The notes under the pieces were generated by a model. The model made no database searches and had not been told where the DNA came from. It saw only the letters and a program-made list of their open reading frames with translations. 64,000 bases of DNA from Fredinandcohnia onubensis (lineage in GTDB: Bacteria > Bacillota > Bacilli > Bacillales > Bacillaceae_L). Shown in pieces: positions 44,155-51,710 of this stretch (position 1 is the stretch's first letter; every line of letters begins with the position of its first letter). The translations under genes and the position numbers were made by a program. Location of the stretch: positions 186,001-250,000 of the forward strand of contig NZ_JAPSKV010000002.1 of assembly GCF_031181385.1 (NCBI RefSeq), read 5' to 3'.

Positions 44155-46197
44155 TTAGTCATCATTATCCTTATCTCTCTTTTTTTCTTCCTTTTTACGC
44201 TCTTTCTCTTTTTCTTTCCTTTTTTTCTCTTCTTCTTTCCTCTCTTTTTGCTCCTCTTTCCACTTATCTTTATCTTTTTTCTTATCTTCCGACCTCCACT
44301 CATTCTCCTTTTTCTGAACAGGAGCCTGATAGGTTGGGAGATTGAATGAAGTAGGTGGAACATTACTTAATGACTGTTGCATTATTTCTTTAAAAATTGT
44401 TGCAGCCGTTGAACTTGTAGTTGTCAAATAATGTTCTGCATCAGTCTTGTCATATCCAAGCCAGACTGCACCGACAAGTTCAGGCGTATATCCGACCATC
44501 CAAATATCCTTTGCTCCATTGATACCATCAATAGCTACCTGAGTTGAACCGGTCTTACCAGCTACTTCTCTTCCTTCTATTTTTGCATCTCGGCCAGATC
44601 CATTTTCAACAGCACCCTTCAGCAAGAATGTCATTCTTTTAGCAACCTCAGGGGTTGTAACTTGTACAGGCTCTTCATTCCACTCGGCAATGACCTCACC
44701 GTTTGTATCAACAATTTTTGAAATTGCATGTGCCTTCGTCTTTTTTCCTTCGTTTGGAAAAGTTGTATAAGCTTCAGCCATGTGAATGGGGGCAACCCCC
44801 TGATCAAGACCTCCAAGAGCAAGACTCAAGTTATGATCATTTTCTGTTATCGGAAGACCAAATTCATTTACAGCATCAATCCCGCTTTTAAGTCCAATTT
44901 CATTCAACAACCAAACTGCTGGAACATTATCTGAATTCCTCACTGCATCATATATGGTGACACTGCCTTTAAATCTTCCACTAACATTTGATGGTTGGTA
45001 GCCATTGAAACTCATTGGTTTATCAGGTAGTACATCATATATGCTGTAGCCACGTTCCAATGCTGGCGTGTATACAGAAAGTGGTTTGATTGTTGAACCC
45101 GGCTGCCTTTTTAATTGAGTTGCATGATTGAAACCACGAAATACATGCTCCCCACGACCTCCAACTAAGGCGTTTATTCCACCAGTCTTTGGGTCTACTA
45201 AAATAGCACCACTTTGTAGCAATTGATCTTCTGGACTAGTAGGAAATAGGCTGTCATTTTTATATACATTTTCGACAGATTCCTGCATATGAGGATCAAG
45301 CTCTGTATAAATTTCCAAGCCACCAGACATCACCTCATTTTGGGTGAGTCCATATTTTTCAATTGCTTCTTCAATTATATAATCGACGTAATATGGGTAT
45401 TTTCCTTCATATGGATCAAGTTGGCGCCCTTTGAACACGATTTCTTGTGCCTTAGCTTCCTGCACTTGGTTAGAAGTTAAATATCCCTGTTCCTCCATCG
45501 CTGCTAATACAAGATCCCTGCGGCTAAGCGATTTTTCCTCGTTAATTAATGGGTTCATTGTAGAAGGTGCTTTAATTATACCGGCAAGAATAGCTCCTTC
45601 ACTAACTGTTAGTTCATTAACCTCTTTGCCAAAATAAGTTCTTGAAGCATTTTTTATGCCCCATGCCCCTTCACCAAAATAGATTTGATTCAAATACATT
45701 TCAATAATTTTTTCCTTTGAAAATGTACGCTCTATTTTTTGAGCAAGAAAGAATTCGTCTATTTTCCGTTTCAGTGTTTGCTCATGAGTTAGAAAGACGT
45801 TCTTCGTCAATTGCTGGGTAATCGTACTTCCACCTTCAACTATTTCACCCGCTTTTAAATTTCGGAAAAGCGCACGAAAAATACCGATATAATCCACCCC
45901 TGGATGTTTGTAAAATCGGCGGTCTTCAATGGCAACTAAGGCATTAATGACATGTGGCGGAATTTTTTCATAGCTTACACCTTCGATTTTAGGTCCAGGT
46001 ACCTTACTGGCGATATCTCCATTTTTATCATAGATAATAGTTGGTTCCGGCAATGGATTGTTCAAAGCACTAACATCCCGAGAATTGATATACATGTTGA
46101 GCCCAATAGCAATAAATAAAATAAAAACCAACCCAATTAACAGGATGATTTTTACTTTTCCTACTTCGGACAAAGTCTTCATGAAGTTTTTTCCCAT
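44155..46197 (-). CDS. Class A penicillin-binding protein (transglycosylase/transpeptidase)
   Basis: 680 aa from the ATG at 46197 (GGAGGG upstream; an earlier in-frame ATG exists at 46215). N-terminal membrane anchor, then GT51 transglycosylase motifs AIEDRRFYKHPGVD near 92, GGSTITQQLTKN and RKIDEFFLAQKIE. Transpeptidase motifs: STIK near 370, SDN near 422 and KTGS near 545. The last ~50 residues are almost entirely Lys, Glu, Asp and Arg. It polymerises and cross-links peptidoglycan. It resembles the PbpF/PbpG sporulation group, but the exact paralogue is uncertain. Confidence 0.9.
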   Translation of the reverse strand: MGKNFMKTLSEVGKVKIILLIGLVFILFIAIGLNMYINSRDVSALNNPLPEPTIIYDKNGDIASKVPGPKIEGVSYEKIPPHVINALVAIEDRRFYKHPGVDYIGIFRALFRNLKAGEIVEGGSTITQQLTKNVFLTHEQTLKRKIDEFFLAQKIERTFSKEKIIEMYLNQIYFGEGAWGIKNASRTYFGKEVNELTVSEGAILAGIIKAPSTMNPLINEEKSLSRRDLVLAAMEEQGYLTSNQVQEAKAQEIVFKGRQLDPYEGKYPYYVDYIIEEAIEKYGLTQNEVMSGGLEIYTELDPHMQESVENVYKNDSLFPTSPEDQLLQSGAILVDPKTGGINALVGGRGEHVFRGFNHATQLKRQPGSTIKPLSVYTPALERGYSIYDVLPDKPMSFNGYQPSNVSGRFKGSVTIYDAVRNSDNVPAVWLLNEIGLKSGIDAVNEFGLPITENDHNLSLALGGLDQGVAPIHMAEAYTTFPNEGKKTKAHAISKIVDTNGEVIAEWNEEPVQVTTPEVAKRMTFLLKGAVENGSGRDAKIEGREVAGKTGSTQVAIDGINGAKDIWMVGYTPELVGAVWLGYDKTDAEHYLTTTSSTAATIFKEIMQQSLSNVPPTSFNLPTYQAPVQKKENEWRSEDKKKDKDKWKEEQKERKEEEKKRKEKEKERKKEEKKRDKDNDD

Positions 46198-46294
46198 TAT
46201 TCGAATGCCCTCCAAATGTGCATATATGTGTTAAAAATTGCGTTACATATATAGATTCGAACGGGAATAATTTTTATGGGGATACCAAACTTAT

Positions 46295-46981
46295 TTATTT
46301 ACAGTCACGAACAAATTCTAATATGTCAGTATACATCCTAGAGTGATAGTACATCCCAAATTCTAGACCACGTTCAATAATTCTTTTTTGTTCTCCTTCA
46401 TAGCCTTGAGACACTACTTCATATATTTCGTTGGCATGTTGCACATCAAGTACCTCATGATCTGTAAAATGAACGAGTGACTTGTTTTCGCTCCCATAGG
46501 TGTTTTTCGCAAATTGGCCCACTAATGGCGAAACACGTGCAACGATTTCTTCAATTACACCAAGTGCGGCCAGCCCTTCCAAATAGTGATAGTGAAGACA
46601 AAGATCAGTTAATGCACGGTTGTATGCAAGAACAGGTATGCATGGTTCGCTTTCGTACATTTCTTCTTCAGATATTCCAATACCTTTTAAAAACTGTTTA
46701 TAAGTCTCGCTATGAACATACTTTTCGTTCATTTTCCCATGCTCTTCAAATAGGTTTTCCACAAGTGGCATCCTCATTCGAAAGTCTGACATATTCGTTA
46801 AAATCGCTGATAAAAAACGCGGAAAGTAAAGAACGACATGATAAATTTGAAGTGCAATTTCCTTTTGCTGTTCTTCTGAAAATTCCCCTTTCGCCAAAGC
46901 CACAAATAATGGATGTCGTTCAATTTTCTCAACTTGAAACATACCATCTGTCACATTCTTTAACTCTACAAATTTCTCCAT
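46295..46981 (-). CDS. Heme-oxygenase-like diiron oxidase (HDO) family protein
   Basis: 228 aa all-helical protein of the TenA/PqqC/UndA fold. Candidate diiron ligands are E80 and H90 (in NLFEEHGKMNEKYVHSE), E145 (GVIEE), and H175, D179 and H182 (HEVLDVQH). The E-x9-H and H-x3-D-x2-H spacing is as I remember for SznF. Related enzymes desaturate, cleave or N-oxygenate amino-acid or fatty-acid substrates with O2. It is the last gene of a four-gene operon, 15 bases after the GNAT-like gene, with AGGAGGA upstream. Substrate unknown; the partner genes suggest an aminocarboxypropyl product. Confidence 0.78.
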   Translation of the reverse strand: MEKFVELKNVTDGMFQVEKIERHPLFVALAKGEFSEEQQKEIALQIYHVVLYFPRFLSAILTNMSDFRMRMPLVENLFEEHGKMNEKYVHSETYKQFLKGIGISEEEMYESEPCIPVLAYNRALTDLCLHYHYLEGLAALGVIEEIVARVSPLVGQFAKNTYGSENKSLVHFTDHEVLDVQHANEIYEVVSQGYEGEQKRIIERGLEFGMYYHSRMYTDILEFVRDCK

Positions 46982-46996
46982 TCTTACATCATCCTC

Positions 46997-48013
46997 CTAA
47001 ATAAGTGTTATTTCATGAAAATTCATTGAAAGGTTTGCAGGAATATCCCCGTACGCAAATGTTGTTGATGAGAGTTGTATACTAAAAGGGTTATTTCGAT
47101 ATTGCTCTGTTTCTTTGGAAGATACTCCAAAAAACAAATAGGTGTATCGCTGCCTATAGGTCCTTTGAATATAGGAGATACATTCCTTTCGATATCTCTC
47201 TGGTTTTTCCCTGGCCGCAAAAAATGCCATATAGCCATGCCGAAATTCCTCACCTTGATCAGGCAATAGTGGGCAACCAACTGCCCGACAAATCAAATTT
47301 ACTATCTTAAACATGAAAGGAAGTCTCTTAGAAAGTCGAAGCTTTCTAGCATCTGATTGATTCACAAGTTTACAGATTGCTAGGTCGCCCTTCTCATCTC
47401 TAACAACCAAGAACAAACCATTTTCTTTTAAAAATATCCTCTTATCACATAGTGCAAAGTCTTGAGACCTAGCTAAGCTCTTGTAAATCTGCCATGCCTT
47501 TTCCCCTTCAATTTCAATTACATCAACACGATTGTTCCGATATTTTAAGAACATTGGTACTCCAATATGAAACGTTCTTCCAAGTTCAATTCCACCTGGA
47601 AGGAGCCCATTACCTTTTGTCATGGATGCTTTGTTTGAATTGGTATCAAGAACGGTGGAATACATCCATTTGACTGTACCTTCATTTTGATAAAGAGATA
47701 CTAAATGTTGTGTCAATCGATAGTATGCAAAGGTCCGATGGAAGTCAGGATGAATCCTTAAGTCATTTAAGTAATATACATGTTTACAGGCACCATCAAT
47801 TACCCGCTTTTGCTGACTCACTGCAACACAGCCAATTAATGTACGCCCTTTAAACAATCCAAAGTGCCTTGTCCTTCCAAATTCCTCTGACAGTTCAAAA
47901 AAATTCGGAGATCGATCAACATAAAAGAGCTCGCTACCTGTACTTGTTTCATTTGATAACTGAAGCAGTTGTGATCCGTATGATTCATCAAGTTCCATAA
48001 ATGAATAGGTCAT
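46997..48013 (-). CDS. GNAT-like acyltransferase, 338 aa
   Basis: The N-terminal half resembles a GNAT fold: FGLFKGRTLIGCVAVSQQ (about 52-69), YYLNDLRIHPDFHRT (about 80-94, the beta4/CoA-loop region, although the usual Q/RxxGxG/A is not clear). The C-terminal half repeats a similar length without a recognised domain, so a tandem GNAT is possible. It starts inside the stop of the DUF3419 gene (ATGA), implying coupling. It may acylate or acetylate the product of the neighbouring transferase; this is inference. Confidence 0.65.
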   Translation of the reverse strand: MTYSFMELDESYGSQLLQLSNETSTGSELFYVDRSPNFFELSEEFGRTRHFGLFKGRTLIGCVAVSQQKRVIDGACKHVYYLNDLRIHPDFHRTFAYYRLTQHLVSLYQNEGTVKWMYSTVLDTNSNKASMTKGNGLLPGGIELGRTFHIGVPMFLKYRNNRVDVIEIEGEKAWQIYKSLARSQDFALCDKRIFLKENGLFLVVRDEKGDLAICKLVNQSDARKLRLSKRLPFMFKIVNLICRAVGCPLLPDQGEEFRHGYMAFFAAREKPERYRKECISYIQRTYRQRYTYLFFGVSSKETEQYRNNPFSIQLSSTTFAYGDIPANLSMNFHEITLI

Positions 48014-49083
48014 ACCAATTGCCCCACTGTTATTTTTTGATACAACATCGAACGCTCTAATCCTTCACAACTTTTTGACAGCTCCTCATCGCGAATAAAC
48101 CGATCCACAAAAAAATCAGGTAATTTACTCGTACTAAGCATATTTCGGAACAACAATACAGCTTTTTCCGATTTTGATTGAATCATACTGTTACATATCG
48201 CTTCCTTTCCTTTTTCATCAGCCCAGTCAAATACATTTGACAAATAAAAAGCATCAATCGAATTTTCCTTCCCTAATAGATCTTGGATACTCATTGGATA
48301 AATTAACAGTTTATCAATATTTCTTTTTACTTCTTCATATCCTTCTGGAGTTAAATATAATGGAACTCCCTCGACCTGATGATACAAATAAGTAGAAAAT
48401 AATATTTGGCTTAAAAAGTAATTATTGTGAATCTGCTTTGTTTTCACTTCCTTCTCAAATTGACTTAAGAAGAAATTCCCAAAATCATTTTCACTGGCAT
48501 TCTTAAACATATAGCTAGGAAAAAATTGTAGGTGTGTCGTTTTACTTAACAATATTTTCACAGCTGTTCGCCATTGGGCAGTTGTTAGATATTCTTCATA
48601 AAATTTCTGTTGCTCAGCAAGGTTTTTGGCAGAAAACAAGTGATTCCAAACAGTCTCGTCATATACATTCCGGCAAATGTTTTCCCCTAAAAATCTATAA
48701 AAACGCTCATTTACACCACAATGATTAATTCCATTTTCTATTTCACTACGATGCAACTTCCAAAATTGTCTCGCATAATCTGGCAATTCTTCAGCAATCT
48801 CCTCATACATTTCATTTCGGTTTTCACTATCCATTTCCCCGATAAAAGCAAGAAAATCATTCAGAGCAAACTGCTGAATCGCTACCTTTTTCAACTCAAT
48901 CAAAGCACATTGCGCGGGATTTACATCAACACAGAGAACTTGGTTAATCGTGTCAGTCAGAATGGAAAATGCCGTACATCCACCTGAACCAACTACAAGC
49001 ACTTTCTGTGGCCCTACTATCCTTGAAATCTCTCTTTCTACCAAACTGTCTTCTCTGATTTGCGAAAAATAAATGTCAGACAT
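48010..49083 (-). CDS. DUF3419/BtaA-like SAM aminocarboxypropyl transferase
   Basis: 357 aa. The SAM-binding motif KVLVVGSGGCTAFSIL is near 28-43 and the acidic motif CVDVNPAQCALIELKKVA near 51-68. These match BtaA/DUF3419 proteins, which move the 3-amino-3-carboxypropyl group of SAM to diacylglycerol to start betaine-lipid synthesis. Tracts such as YSSNVFDW-like FYLSNVFDWADEKGK near 295 are typical of the family's acceptor region. No BtaB N-methyltransferase accompanies it. It overlaps both neighbours (8 and 4 bases). Acceptor unknown. Confidence 0.72.
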   Translation of the reverse strand: MSDIYFSQIREDSLVEREISRIVGPQKVLVVGSGGCTAFSILTDTINQVLCVDVNPAQCALIELKKVAIQQFALNDFLAFIGEMDSENRNEMYEEIAEELPDYARQFWKLHRSEIENGINHCGVNERFYRFLGENICRNVYDETVWNHLFSAKNLAEQQKFYEEYLTTAQWRTAVKILLSKTTHLQFFPSYMFKNASENDFGNFFLSQFEKEVKTKQIHNNYFLSQILFSTYLYHQVEGVPLYLTPEGYEEVKRNIDKLLIYPMSIQDLLGKENSIDAFYLSNVFDWADEKGKEAICNSMIQSKSEKAVLLFRNMLSTSKLPDFFVDRFIRDEELSKSCEGLERSMLYQKITVGQLV

Positions 49084-49816
49084 TACTTACAACCCCTCCT
49101 TCAAATAAATCCAAGACTTCTTTTTTTCCTTCTTTCCAATTCAGCATTCTTTTTCTTCCAATTTCCAGCTGCTGATTGAATGTATCTCTAGCATTTGGAT
49201 TATCCGGTATTGCGGAATATAGGACGACATTCATTCCTTGTGATAGATCGACTTTTCTGGAACAAAGCCAATTCTCCACTGCTGGATAAGTTGATTTATA
49301 TTGATAAAGTGAATCTATTGATTTTGAGGTTAGTTGTTCAATATCTAGCTCATATATATGTGAAAGCTTTTTTGAGAAAATTTGAACCTTCTCCTTTACT
49401 TCTTCAGGAACATCGGATACCTGGAAGTTCGGGTAAGCGCAATCATCAAACAACGCTTTAAAAAGCACCAAAACCTCTGGATTTTCAATTTCTGCAAGAA
49501 GGTGTATTTTTCTACCTATATTTTCATCCATTAATCCTTCAATATAAGACATGAAAAGGTCTAGAAAACAGCTCATCCTCGAAAACAAGGGACCGAAGTA
49601 TACAAACTTGTCATCTCCTTGTTCAAAGGTTTGAACTAGTTGGAAGGCGAAAAGCTTTTGATTTCGTCTTAAGCATACAGCCTGTTCGTATCTCTCAAAT
49701 CTCGGAATAAGGTATTCCTCCCCCACCTTGCTTACTCGCCTCGAAAACGAAAGCAATTCTTCTTTGTGTTTTATAAGTAATTGATTTGTCTCGATAATCT
49801 CTAATAATTGAGTCAC
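49076..49816 (-). CDS. Unrecognised protein, possible acyltransferase fold
   Basis: 246 aa from a GTG start with a weak ribosome site. The central part (about 40-125: VCLRRNQKLFAFQLVQTF, FVYFGPLFSR, IHLLAEIENPEVLVLFKALF) has the alternation of strands and helices seen in GNAT-related acyltransferases, but no diagnostic motif. It is the first gene of the operon, coupled by an 8-base overlap to the DUF3419 gene. Twin palindromes lie in its promoter region. Function is unknown. Confidence 0.6.
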   Translation of the reverse strand: MTQLLEIIETNQLLIKHKEELLSFSRRVSKVGEEYLIPRFERYEQAVCLRRNQKLFAFQLVQTFEQGDDKFVYFGPLFSRMSCFLDLFMSYIEGLMDENIGRKIHLLAEIENPEVLVLFKALFDDCAYPNFQVSDVPEEVKEKVQIFSKKLSHIYELDIEQLTSKSIDSLYQYKSTYPAVENWLCSRKVDLSQGMNVVLYSAIPDNPNARDTFNQQLEIGRKRMLNWKEGKKEVLDLFEGGVVSNV

Positions 49817-49837
49817 TCATCACACCAACCAATTCCT

Positions 49838-49884
49838 ATAGTGTAAAATTACACCATTTATTCTTTAGTGTAATTTTACACTAT
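49838..49884. promoter_or_regulatory. Twin palindromic operators in a divergent promoter region
   Basis: GTGTAAAATTACAC (49841-49854) and GTGTAATTTTACAC (49868-49881) are each perfect 6-bp palindromes (GTGTAA-N2-TTACAC). They are exact reverse complements of one another, extended to 17-bp arms, 13 bases apart. They lie about 25-65 bases upstream of the biosynthetic operon and over 190 bases before the DUF47 gene. A dimeric repressor or activator is expected; neither arm is followed by a T tract. Confidence 0.7.
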
Positions 49885-50075
49885 TCGAAATAAACTTCAA
49901 GTATATTTCCTTAATTTTCTATAGATAATAAAAGAGCCTAGTTTATAAATTATCCAGATGTAGAGTTGTATTTATGTTGCATCTTGTAAACTAAAATTTT
50001 TATTGTAATTTCGACAAATTTAGATAAAAGTATTCTTTTTGTGTTTTTATATTTCATTATTGGAGGAACCATACA

Positions 50076-50696
50076 ATGTTTGGAAACAAGAAAAAAGACG
50101 TGTTTTTTGATGCCCTGACTTCAATCTCTTCAAATTTAAAAGAAGCGGCAGATTATTTCGTACAGTTTAAAATTAAAAATGTAAGTGACTTGAAAGAATT
50201 TTCGAGTCAAATGAAAGAGTATGAGAGAAAAGGTGATGATGTCATTCATGGCTTAATTGCTCAACTTAATAAATCTTTCATCACACCGATTGAGCGAGAG
50301 GATATTCTACAGTTGGCTATGAAAATGGATGATGTTTTAGATGGAATGGAGCAATGTGCAGCACGTTTTGAGATGTATTCTTTGACTACTACAGACGAAT
50401 ACATGACTTCTTATGCTGACTATATACATAAAAGTACGATTGAGATCTTTCATGCCATTGAACTTCTTTCAAATAAAAAGCTTCTAGAGATGCGTACACA
50501 CGCGATTAAAATCAATGATTATGAATCACAATGTGACGAAATCCTAAGGGTTTCAATAAAACAGCTTTTCCAAACTGAAAAAGACCCTATAAAAATTATT
50601 CAGGTGAAGGAGATTTATGAGATTCTTGAAGGCATTTCGGACTTCTGTGAGGATGTTGCGGATACTTTAGAGACCATCATTATGAGAAATGCATAA
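50076..50696 (+). CDS. DUF47 family phosphate-transport accessory protein (YkaA type)
   Basis: 206 aa, all-helical, PhoU-like. It starts MFGNKKKDVFFDAL and includes FSSQMKEYERKGDDVIHGL and ILEGISDFCEDVADTLE near the end, typical DUF47. Such proteins regulate the adjacent Pit phosphate permease. Its gene precedes pit by 15 bases and has a good GGAGG ribosome site. Confidence 0.88.
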   Translation: MFGNKKKDVFFDALTSISSNLKEAADYFVQFKIKNVSDLKEFSSQMKEYERKGDDVIHGLIAQLNKSFITPIEREDILQLAMKMDDVLDGMEQCAARFEMYSLTTTDEYMTSYADYIHKSTIEIFHAIELLSNKKLLEMRTHAIKINDYESQCDEILRVSIKQLFQTEKDPIKIIQVKEIYEILEGISDFCEDVADTLETIIMRNA

Positions 50697-50711
50697 GGGA
50701 GAATCTTCTTA

Positions 50712-51710
50712 ATGGATATTTTACTATTATTAACGGTATTAATTGTTTTTTTTGCGTTAGCATTTGACTTCATTAATGGATTTCATGATACGGCTAATGC
50801 AATAGCGACAAGTGTTTCAACAAAGGCACTAAAGCCAAGAGTTGCTATTGTCCTTGCAGCCTCCATGAACTTTATTGGTGCCATTACATTTACGGGGGTT
50901 GCGAAAACTATTACAAAAGATATTGTTGACCCTTTTGCGATTGAAAATGGAACAGTCGTTATCTTAGCAGCCCTACTTTCCGCAATTGCTTGGAATTTGA
51001 TAACGTGGTACTACGGGATACCAAGTAGTTCCTCTCATGCTTTAATTGGGTCCATTGCTGGTGCAGCAATTTCTGCTGCAGGTATTGGGATTTTGAATTA
51101 TGGCGGCTTTATAAAAATCTTACAGGCGCTCATTCTTTCCCCTTTTATAGCATTAGCGGTTGGATTTCTAATGATGAGCCTTTTTAAAATCATCTTTAAA
51201 AACACTAATCTTTACAGGACAAATAAGGGGTTCAGGACCTTTCAGATTTTCACAGCTGCCCTTCAATCTTTTACCCATGGAACGAATGACGCTCAAAAAG
51301 CGATGGGTATCATCACAATGGCTTTGATTGCTGGTGGTTTTACAACCTCTACCGATATACCACTATGGGTAAGAATTTCTGCTGCAACTGCGATGGGGCT
51401 CGGTACATCTGTTGGCGGCTGGAAAATCATTAAAACTGTAGGTGGTAAGATTATGAAAATCCGTCCTATTAATGGGGCGGCGGCTGACCTGTCTTCAGCA
51501 CTCATCATATTTGGAGCGACCTATATTCATTTACCAGTTAGTACAACACATGTGATTTCATCCGCAATCATGGGTGTCGGTTCCGCTCAACGTGTAAAAG
51601 GCGTTAAATGGGGTGTTGCCCGTAAAATCGTCCTCACATGGGTGATTACACTTCCAATCTCAGCATTGCTTGCAGGTATCATTTTTCAAATCCTTAACCT
51701 ATTTTTCTAA
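50712..51710 (+). CDS. pit: Low-affinity inorganic phosphate transporter Pit
   Basis: 332 aa with about ten membrane helices and the duplicated Pit signatures: GFHDTANAIATSVSTKAL near 25-42 and FTHGTNDAQKAMGIITMAL near 188-206. It imports metal-phosphate by proton symport. It is co-transcribed with the DUF47 gene (ykaA-ykaB in B. subtilis) and ends in a strong terminator. It is divergent from the DUF3419 operon. Confidence 0.92.
   Translation: MDILLLLTVLIVFFALAFDFINGFHDTANAIATSVSTKALKPRVAIVLAASMNFIGAITFTGVAKTITKDIVDPFAIENGTVVILAALLSAIAWNLITWYYGIPSSSSHALIGSIAGAAISAAGIGILNYGGFIKILQALILSPFIALAVGFLMMSLFKIIFKNTNLYRTNKGFRTFQIFTAALQSFTHGTNDAQKAMGIITMALIAGGFTTSTDIPLWVRISAATAMGLGTSVGGWKIIKTVGGKIMKIRPINGAAADLSSALIIFGATYIHLPVSTTHVISSAIMGVGSAQRVKGVKWGVARKIVLTWVITLPISALLAGIIFQILNLFF

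Follow-up and report, generated by a model that had tools for sequence, protein, structure and literature searches.

What do four adjoining genes make when they join a predicted S-adenosylmethionine (SAM)-dependent transferase to a diiron oxidase and acyltransferase-like proteins? The question is raised by a stretch of 64,000 nucleotides from Fredinandcohnia onubensis (contig NZ_JAPSKV010000002.1, positions 186,001 to 250,000; hereafter the window), in which the four minus-strand open reading frames A, B, C and D lie adjacent, overlapping or nearly touching (Table 1). An earlier reading made from the letters of this DNA (the sequence-only reading) had proposed that they build an unusual aminocarboxypropyl lipid or small metabolite. 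Read directly from the sequence are a conserved operon, the families of B (DUF3419) and D (haem-oxygenase-like diiron oxidase, HDO), a recurring trio of HDO, DUF3419 and GNAT-type genes, a natural HDO-DUF3419 fusion and a shared palindrome. We consider it rather probable that A to D form a dedicated biosynthetic operon leading to a small metabolite that is acylated, oxidised and probably amphiphilic. The open-licence literature searched yielded no description of a pathway with this combination and no paper bringing BtaA together with haem-oxygenase-like terms; the papers in it that mention DUF3419, judged by title, deal with algae, plant betaine lipids, a smut fungus and Ostreococcus.

The gene layout described by the sequence-only reading was borne out, with A and B overlapping by 8 bases in the window, B and C by 4, and a gap of 15 bases between C and D. 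A scan of positions 46000-50200 found no terminator-like site. The order A-B-C-D, on one strand, was identical in all 14 distinct loci read, each from a different genome and together covering four Bacilli families: the window and seven further loci of its own family (f1), one of f6, four of f68 and one of f63. Relatives include Fredinandcohnia onubensis (L012, L013) and Bacillus sinesaloumensis (L014), the latter grouped with f1 on 71% B identity and its tree position. The B-C overlap measured exactly 4 bases in 14/14 loci and the C-D gap 9-16 bases. An A-B overlap of 4 or 8 bases was present in 12 of the 14, the remaining two lacking an intact A or B as read: gene A, found at its position in 13 related loci, is disrupted in one of them, L023, and the usual start codon is absent at the normal B position in L022. 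The distance matrices of the four genes correlated with one another at 0.948 to 0.986 (12 loci giving 66 pairs; L022 and L023 excluded); for these related, non-independent sequences, and with no significance value attached, this shows joint inheritance of the four genes. When the flanks (~6-8 kb) were clustered at a minimum of 60 amino acids, which places short peptides outside the reach of the comparison, only A, B, C and D among the 25 largest gene clusters spanned four families. One other cluster, of a 407-aa protein, was common to f1 and f6. Judged by sequence, the four-gene operon is real and conserved. The expected recurrence of the genes across genera was found, and neither of the outcomes named as refuting (proteins falling into unrelated families, no co-occurrence elsewhere) occurred.

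A search with B of an order sample (396 genomes) found 11 that matched at E <=1e-5, eight of them with at least 48% identity. A class sample gave 12 matching genomes of 398 (six at 42% or above, window genome included) and a phylum sample three of 398, namely the window genome and two at 26%. Searches of single families, which overlap these samples, gave 9/39 genomes for f68 (four of the nine in the clade of B), 1/23 for f63 and 1/7 for f6. Among the same-genus genomes listed for the order sample, B was present at 72% identity or more in 7/8, the exception being G126. A profile of C, run on the class sample with at most five candidates per genome scored, gave full-length matches (E <=6e-140) in 6/398 genomes, exactly the six with a protein of the B clade; two weak partial matches occurred elsewhere (E 1e-6 and 3.6e-6). 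A plasmid search with C returned zero matches.

B matched DUF3419 (PF11899) at E 2e-49 (169.2 bits vs a cut-off of 28.2), and residues E11, D12, G35, D53 and D277 were invariant in all 13 DUF3419 rows compared, the fusion and rhizobial proteins included. In a tree, the B proteins of the four-gene loci formed their own clade (97/99), separated by long branches from a rhizobial BtaA-like clade (100/100) and apart from other DUF3419 clades as well. Note that BtaA was represented there by two rhizobial sequences only (R. leguminosarum, Sinorhizobium), which we take to be BtaA. The R. leguminosarum DUF3419 gene adjoins a class I methyltransferase gene, and B did not group with such methyltransferase-paired (btaA-btaB-like) genes. 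No solved DUF3419 structure was found. BtaA transfers a 3-amino-3-carboxypropyl (ACP) group from SAM (PMC10491745), and by analogy B is assumed to do the same. B resembles the BtaA/BtaB betaine-lipid pathway in being a DUF3419 protein with the shared core residues, but stands in its own clade and is joined by an HDO and a GNAT; none of the four genes encodes a BtaB, and no search for one was made in the remainder of the window or genome.

D matched Haem_oxygenas_2 (PF14518) at E 2.2e-23 (83.4 bits vs a cut-off of 28.9), and in structure databases it matched CADD (1rcw, E 1e-17) and BesC (7twa, E 6.7e-6). Alignment to CADD, based on ligand residue numbers that we presume for that protein, placed the ligands of D at E80, H90, E144, H175, D179 and H182. 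These positions were invariant in 14 sequences and kept in the fusion, Deefgea and Mycobacterium HDOs described below. With this three-histidine/three-carboxylate (3H/3C) set, D belongs to the HDO superfamily. CADD sacrifices Tyr27 and Lys152 to make 4-aminobenzoate (pABA) (PMC11965152). In D these residues are replaced by F26 and V154, so D as a CADD-type synthase was rejected. The NCBIfam models for CADD and BesC scored D at 84.7 bits (cut-off 200) and 30.7 bits (cut-off 500), respectively. Thus CADD and the 4-aminobenzoate synthase NePabS are the closest solved relatives of D, but D lacks the sacrificial Tyr and Lys and has a different genomic setting. Characterised HDOs mostly act on fatty or amino acids, and in the five 3H/3C HDOs that have substrate-bound structures, Fe1 is ligated directly by the substrate (PMC13108848). 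D shares with the HDO clusters of UndA, BesC, FlcE/FlcD, PolF and MboA the 3H/3C ligands, the small cluster and a proposed amino-acid substrate, whereas none of these is paired or fused with a SAM ACP transferase in the excerpts of the literature examined.

The suggestion that one or two of the remaining proteins are acyltransferase-like held at the level of the fold. C matched GNAT (PF00583) at E 0.0049, below the Pfam cut-off. Foldseek searches with its AlphaFold model (mean pLDDT 84.3) returned the acetyltransferase 3n7z (E 8.2e-13, TMq 0.53), with 2i00, likewise of the tandem type, also near the top, and N-myristoyltransferase (NMT; E 2.1e-12, TMq 0.59, the NMT matches heading the list spanning 0.56-0.61); Eis2 followed lower in the list (E 9.9e-12, TMq 0.52). 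In its predicted structure, C is two GNAT domains in tandem. For A, zero Pfam or NCBIfam families matched. Its model (pLDDT 89.8) had 85 Foldseek matches at E <=0.001; among the 50 listed, nearly all were acetyltransferases by title (TMq 0.28-0.44), the best being NatD (E 2.7e-5, TMq 0.37). A thus has a weakly supported, predicted GNAT-like fold outside any sequence family. The tandem fold of C likens it to N-myristoyltransferase, Eis and FeeM-type GNATs, and the Deefgea GNAT below is weakly FeeM-like, but C is ~10% identical to its structural matches throughout and neither A nor C is in a named family. The catalytic base of NMT is its C-terminal carboxylate (PMC7048800). The 14 C proteins share a single end column in their alignment, as do the B proteins in theirs, and the last residues of the C model are of low confidence; an NMT-type C-terminal carboxylate in C is a lead only.

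The combination of HDO, DUF3419 and GNAT recurs in three settings beyond the four-gene loci. On a Mycobacterium riyadhense plasmid (NZ_OY970457.1, L141), DUF3419, HDO and GNAT genes are followed by an RND/MMPL-family transporter gene (PF03176, E 5.7e-204). Profile scores were 101.7 bits for the HDO (D), 44.3 for DUF3419 (B) and 16.9 for the GNAT (C), the E-values being computed on four proteins only. The DUF3419 gene of this plasmid (L141 4700-5865) has a short annotated start, with the conserved N-terminal motif encoded just upstream in another frame. On the IMG/VR contig IMGVR_UViG_3300031133_000383 (L137), whose genes look bacterial, the two enzymes are fused in one 520-aa protein (HDO PF14518, E 1e-14; DUF3419 PF11899, E 1.4e-12), and a GNAT gene (PF00583, E 1e-5) lies 46 bases 3' of it. 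Here the D, B and C profiles gave 46.1 bits (HDO half), 24.9 (DUF3419 half) and 18.1 (GNAT). The contig came from the A3 scan of viral contigs; the A4 scan gave no match, a phage search with the fusion gave none either, and placement of its DUF3419 half in the tree failed owing to too long a branch. Finally, a Deefgea piscis plasmid (NZ_CP054144.1, L115) carries a FeeM-like GNAT (E 0.0039, below the cut-off), an HDO (E 1.8e-17) that is only remotely like D, DUF3419 (E 3.8e-29), a SAM decarboxylase (SpeD) and two more genes. The fusion suggests that HDO and DUF3419 serve a single pathway and perhaps share an intermediate. The pathway idea of the sequence-only reading is strengthened and extended across phyla.

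In the pathway that we infer (ACP as transferred group, acceptor, acyl donor, step order and product alike), B would transfer the aminocarboxypropyl group of SAM to an acceptor. C, aided by A, would then acylate an amine or hydroxyl on the acceptor or on the new C4 amino acid unit. D would oxidise the acylated product, most likely by desaturation or by oxidative C-C cleavage beside the amino-acid carboxylate. That carboxylate could ligate the iron of D, and once C has acylated it, the new C4 amino acid unit would suit D well as a substrate. An acylated, amphiphilic product is suggested by the MMPL gene beside the Mycobacterium trio and by the likeness of the acyltransferases to FeeM and NMT. 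For Deefgea, an aminopropyl unit provided through SpeD may take the place of ACP. Only tentatively do we extend this to an undescribed class of systems in Bacillota, Actinomycetota and Pseudomonadota. In such systems a SAM transferase (of ACP or, with SAM decarboxylase, aminopropyl) and an HDO, a coupled pair that is once fused, would work with a GNAT to give an exported, envelope or signal amphiphile, an acylated and oxidised amino-acid derivative. In some Bacilli the system would have come under an XRE repressor that already existed and whose remaining sites are found mainly ahead of genes for predicted membrane proteins.

Several points weigh against this pathway. The activity of every operon member is a prediction, and ACP transfer is an assumption carried over from BtaA to a distant member of a broad family. 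The operon in Bacilli has no transporter gene. By the A profile, no A-like protein was found in the M. riyadhense, L137 or Deefgea loci; the GNATs of the first two are only weakly linked to C, that of Deefgea is unlike C, and the SAM decarboxylase there makes aminopropyl transfer possible instead. D-like HDOs also occur without partners: they were found in 7 plasmid records, of which 3 neighbourhoods were opened, and two of these (both Streptomyces) had no DUF3419 or GNAT match. Finally, an HDO was absent from 16/16 DUF3419 neighbourhoods outside the four-gene loci (L015, L017, L018, L019, L042-L046, L063, L064, L112-L114, L142 and L143; 5.6 to 18 kb each) when searched with the D profile and a wider HDO profile at E 0.1. 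The same run detected the HDOs of L115, L137 and L141, that of L115 by the wider profile only, which was built including the Deefgea and fusion HDOs themselves. Because these 16 neighbourhoods lack an HDO, the HDO pairing, for which four independent cases are counted here from sequence, is one of several DUF3419 settings.

Some of these other settings can be described. In L042, L044, L017 and L019 (families by Pfam for L042, by eye for the others), DUF3419 lies beside a Glu/Leu-type dehydrogenase, a second setting in Bacilli; three of the four also have a class III aminotransferase that carries a long extension, and the set looks like another undescribed pathway. UbiA, a phosphoenolpyruvate (PEP)/pyruvate-binding protein, DUF3419 and an AMP-binding enzyme occur together in L015 (by eye), L045, which adds a GNAT, and L143, a set common to Bacteroidota, Bacillota and Alphaproteobacteria. 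In L063 and L064, DUF3419 is directly 3' of a 918-aa fusion of HMG-CoA reductase and a kinase-like domain (Pfam on L064 only). The Rhizobium plasmid CP041205.1 (L112) has ketoacyl-ACP synthase III, an oxidoreductase, an MBL-fold protein, CoF synthetase, DUF3419 and an uncharacterised 368-aa protein. Among the HDOs, a Streptomyces plasmid HDO (L139, L140) with 60% identity to that of M. riyadhense is preceded by an EF-hand protein gene and has no DUF3419 beside it.

Five other products were weighed, taken here in falling order of probability. BtaA joins its ACP unit by an ether. B might accordingly make an O-alkyl homoserine that D desaturates to an enol ether, giving an antimetabolite of the 4-alkoxyvinylglycine type, with N-acylation by the GNATs serving self-protection. 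The HDOs MboA and PolF can desaturate amino-acid side chains (PMC13108848), which favours this scheme. However, an exporter or target gene is absent from the operon, self-protection alone would be a strange role for acyltransferases that are core to every four-gene locus, and the likeness to rhizobitoxine and aminoethoxyvinylglycine (AVG) is one that we assume. We regard this antimetabolite as unlikely.

Betaine lipids are associated with phosphate stress. Next to the operon, at 50076-51710 of the window, lie divergent genes for a PhoU-like protein and a Pit-like phosphate transporter (named from sequence reading). By the flank clusters of the 14 loci, these neighbours are kept in f1 only, and a phosphate link drawn through them was rejected since they are not kept elsewhere. 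A homoserine- or betaine-type membrane lipid, with B acting as BtaA on diacylglycerol, could draw on these f1 neighbours, on the DUF3419 membership of B and on the MMPL gene beside the M. riyadhense trio. Yet it would need neither HDO nor GNAT, phosphate genes are not common outside f1, and none of the four genes is a BtaB, in contrast to R. leguminosarum, where a methyltransferase gene adjoins the DUF3419 gene. This pairing and the separation of the B clade from the rhizobial one led us not to favour the classical betaine lipid, and we judge lipids of this type quite unlikely.

Instead of a small molecule, the target of modification could be a protein, a peptide or RNA. This would fit the known transfer of ACP to RNA (PMC10491745), the action on proteins of GNATs such as the Foldseek matches of A, the peptide modified by the HDO MboA (PMC13185094) and the action of HDOs on ribosomal peptides (PMC13108848). 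The neighbourhoods, however, held no precursor gene of at least 60 aa common to the four families, and we find this route improbable. Ranked next, and distinctly improbable, is a metallophore like nicotianamine or staphylopine. ACP transfer is central to those pathways, but their transferases are reported to be non-homologous to BtaA (PMC10491745); dehydrogenase, exporter and uptake genes are absent from the operon, and the linked regulator is of XRE type. Folate-linked pABA synthesis, with D as a self-sacrificing enzyme, is highly improbable: CADD is the closest solved relative of D, but both sacrificial residues are replaced and the CADD model score falls far below its cut-off.

The acylated, oxidised metabolite that we favour would be made under transcriptional control. 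The twin palindromes that had been noted in the region before the operon are indeed present (Table 1).

Table 1. Features of the four-gene operon and its upstream region in the window.
Feature	Position	Strand	Description
Gene A	49076..49816	-	First operon gene; GTG start; 246 aa; GNAT-like, outside named families
Gene B	48010..49083	-	357 aa; DUF3419 (BtaA-like), predicted SAM ACP transferase
Gene C	46997..48013	-	338 aa; tandem GNAT acyltransferase (predicted fold)
Gene D	46295..46981	-	228 aa; HDO
Palindrome 1 (TAGTGTAAAATTACACTA)	49866..49883		Predicted operator over -10
Palindrome 2	49839..49856		Predicted second operator copy
Sigma-A-like promoter TTGAAG-N16-TAAAAT	49873..49900	-	-10 hexamer inside palindrome 1

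The palindrome pattern had 4 strand-wise matches in the window, a number reached by 0/100 shuffles. Because the promoter scan showed no excess (12 such sites vs a shuffle mean of 15.3), support for the promoter comes from conservation: at several other palindrome sites a TTGAC-like hexamer lies, by eye, 16-17 bases upstream of a -10 that falls within the palindrome. Two palindrome copies were present in all 8 f1 loci read and a related palindrome lies upstream of A in f1, f6 and f63; f68 genomes had zero exact copies. The window genome contains one further perfect palindrome, 63 bases before the gene for a 155-aa XRE-type regulator (HTH_3, E 2.4e-7), which could also be part of the terminator of the preceding gene. 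An orthologue of this regulator (E 1e-10) was found in 12/18 genomes searched (5 of the 18 without the four-gene operon). The palindrome, searched with one pattern in 17 genomes and a slightly longer one in the window genome, occurred in the same 12 and in 0/6 others (Fisher p 5.4e-5, uncorrected for kinship). Its distance from the regulator gene is at most 75 bases in 10/12 genomes; in G051 it precedes a likely two-gene unit including the regulator, and G005 has no exact copy there. We infer that the XRE protein binds the palindromes and is an autoregulating repressor that took over the operon in some lineages, where it would repress its transcription. We rejected the idea that the regulator belongs to the core module: four f68 genomes have the operon with neither an XRE match (E 1e-10) nor an exact palindrome, and G126, G051 and G623 carry the regulator without a B match.

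Other palindrome sites (L061 7963; L096, L097, L099, L101, L106-L109) mostly lie just before predicted membrane-protein genes, and that in L131 does not; they are a possible XRE regulon. By a crude hydropathy scan, the next gene is at most 50 bp away and encodes a hydrophobic segment at 8 sites, four of which are one family (hence 5 families), against a background of 23/58 window open reading frames. At the G126:C40 site the next gene, at 71 bp, lacks such a segment, which counts against a membrane bias; L100 and L105 are ambiguous, and no gene was read within 400 bp at G228:C16. The membrane-protein bias is suggestive only.

No function is yet listed for the DUF3419 family, and HDOs of known function number only about a dozen (PMC13108848). 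The compact four-gene operon and the natural HDO-DUF3419 fusion make the function of both families testable in a laboratory host, and the operon could reveal a new class of SAM-derived lipid or signal.

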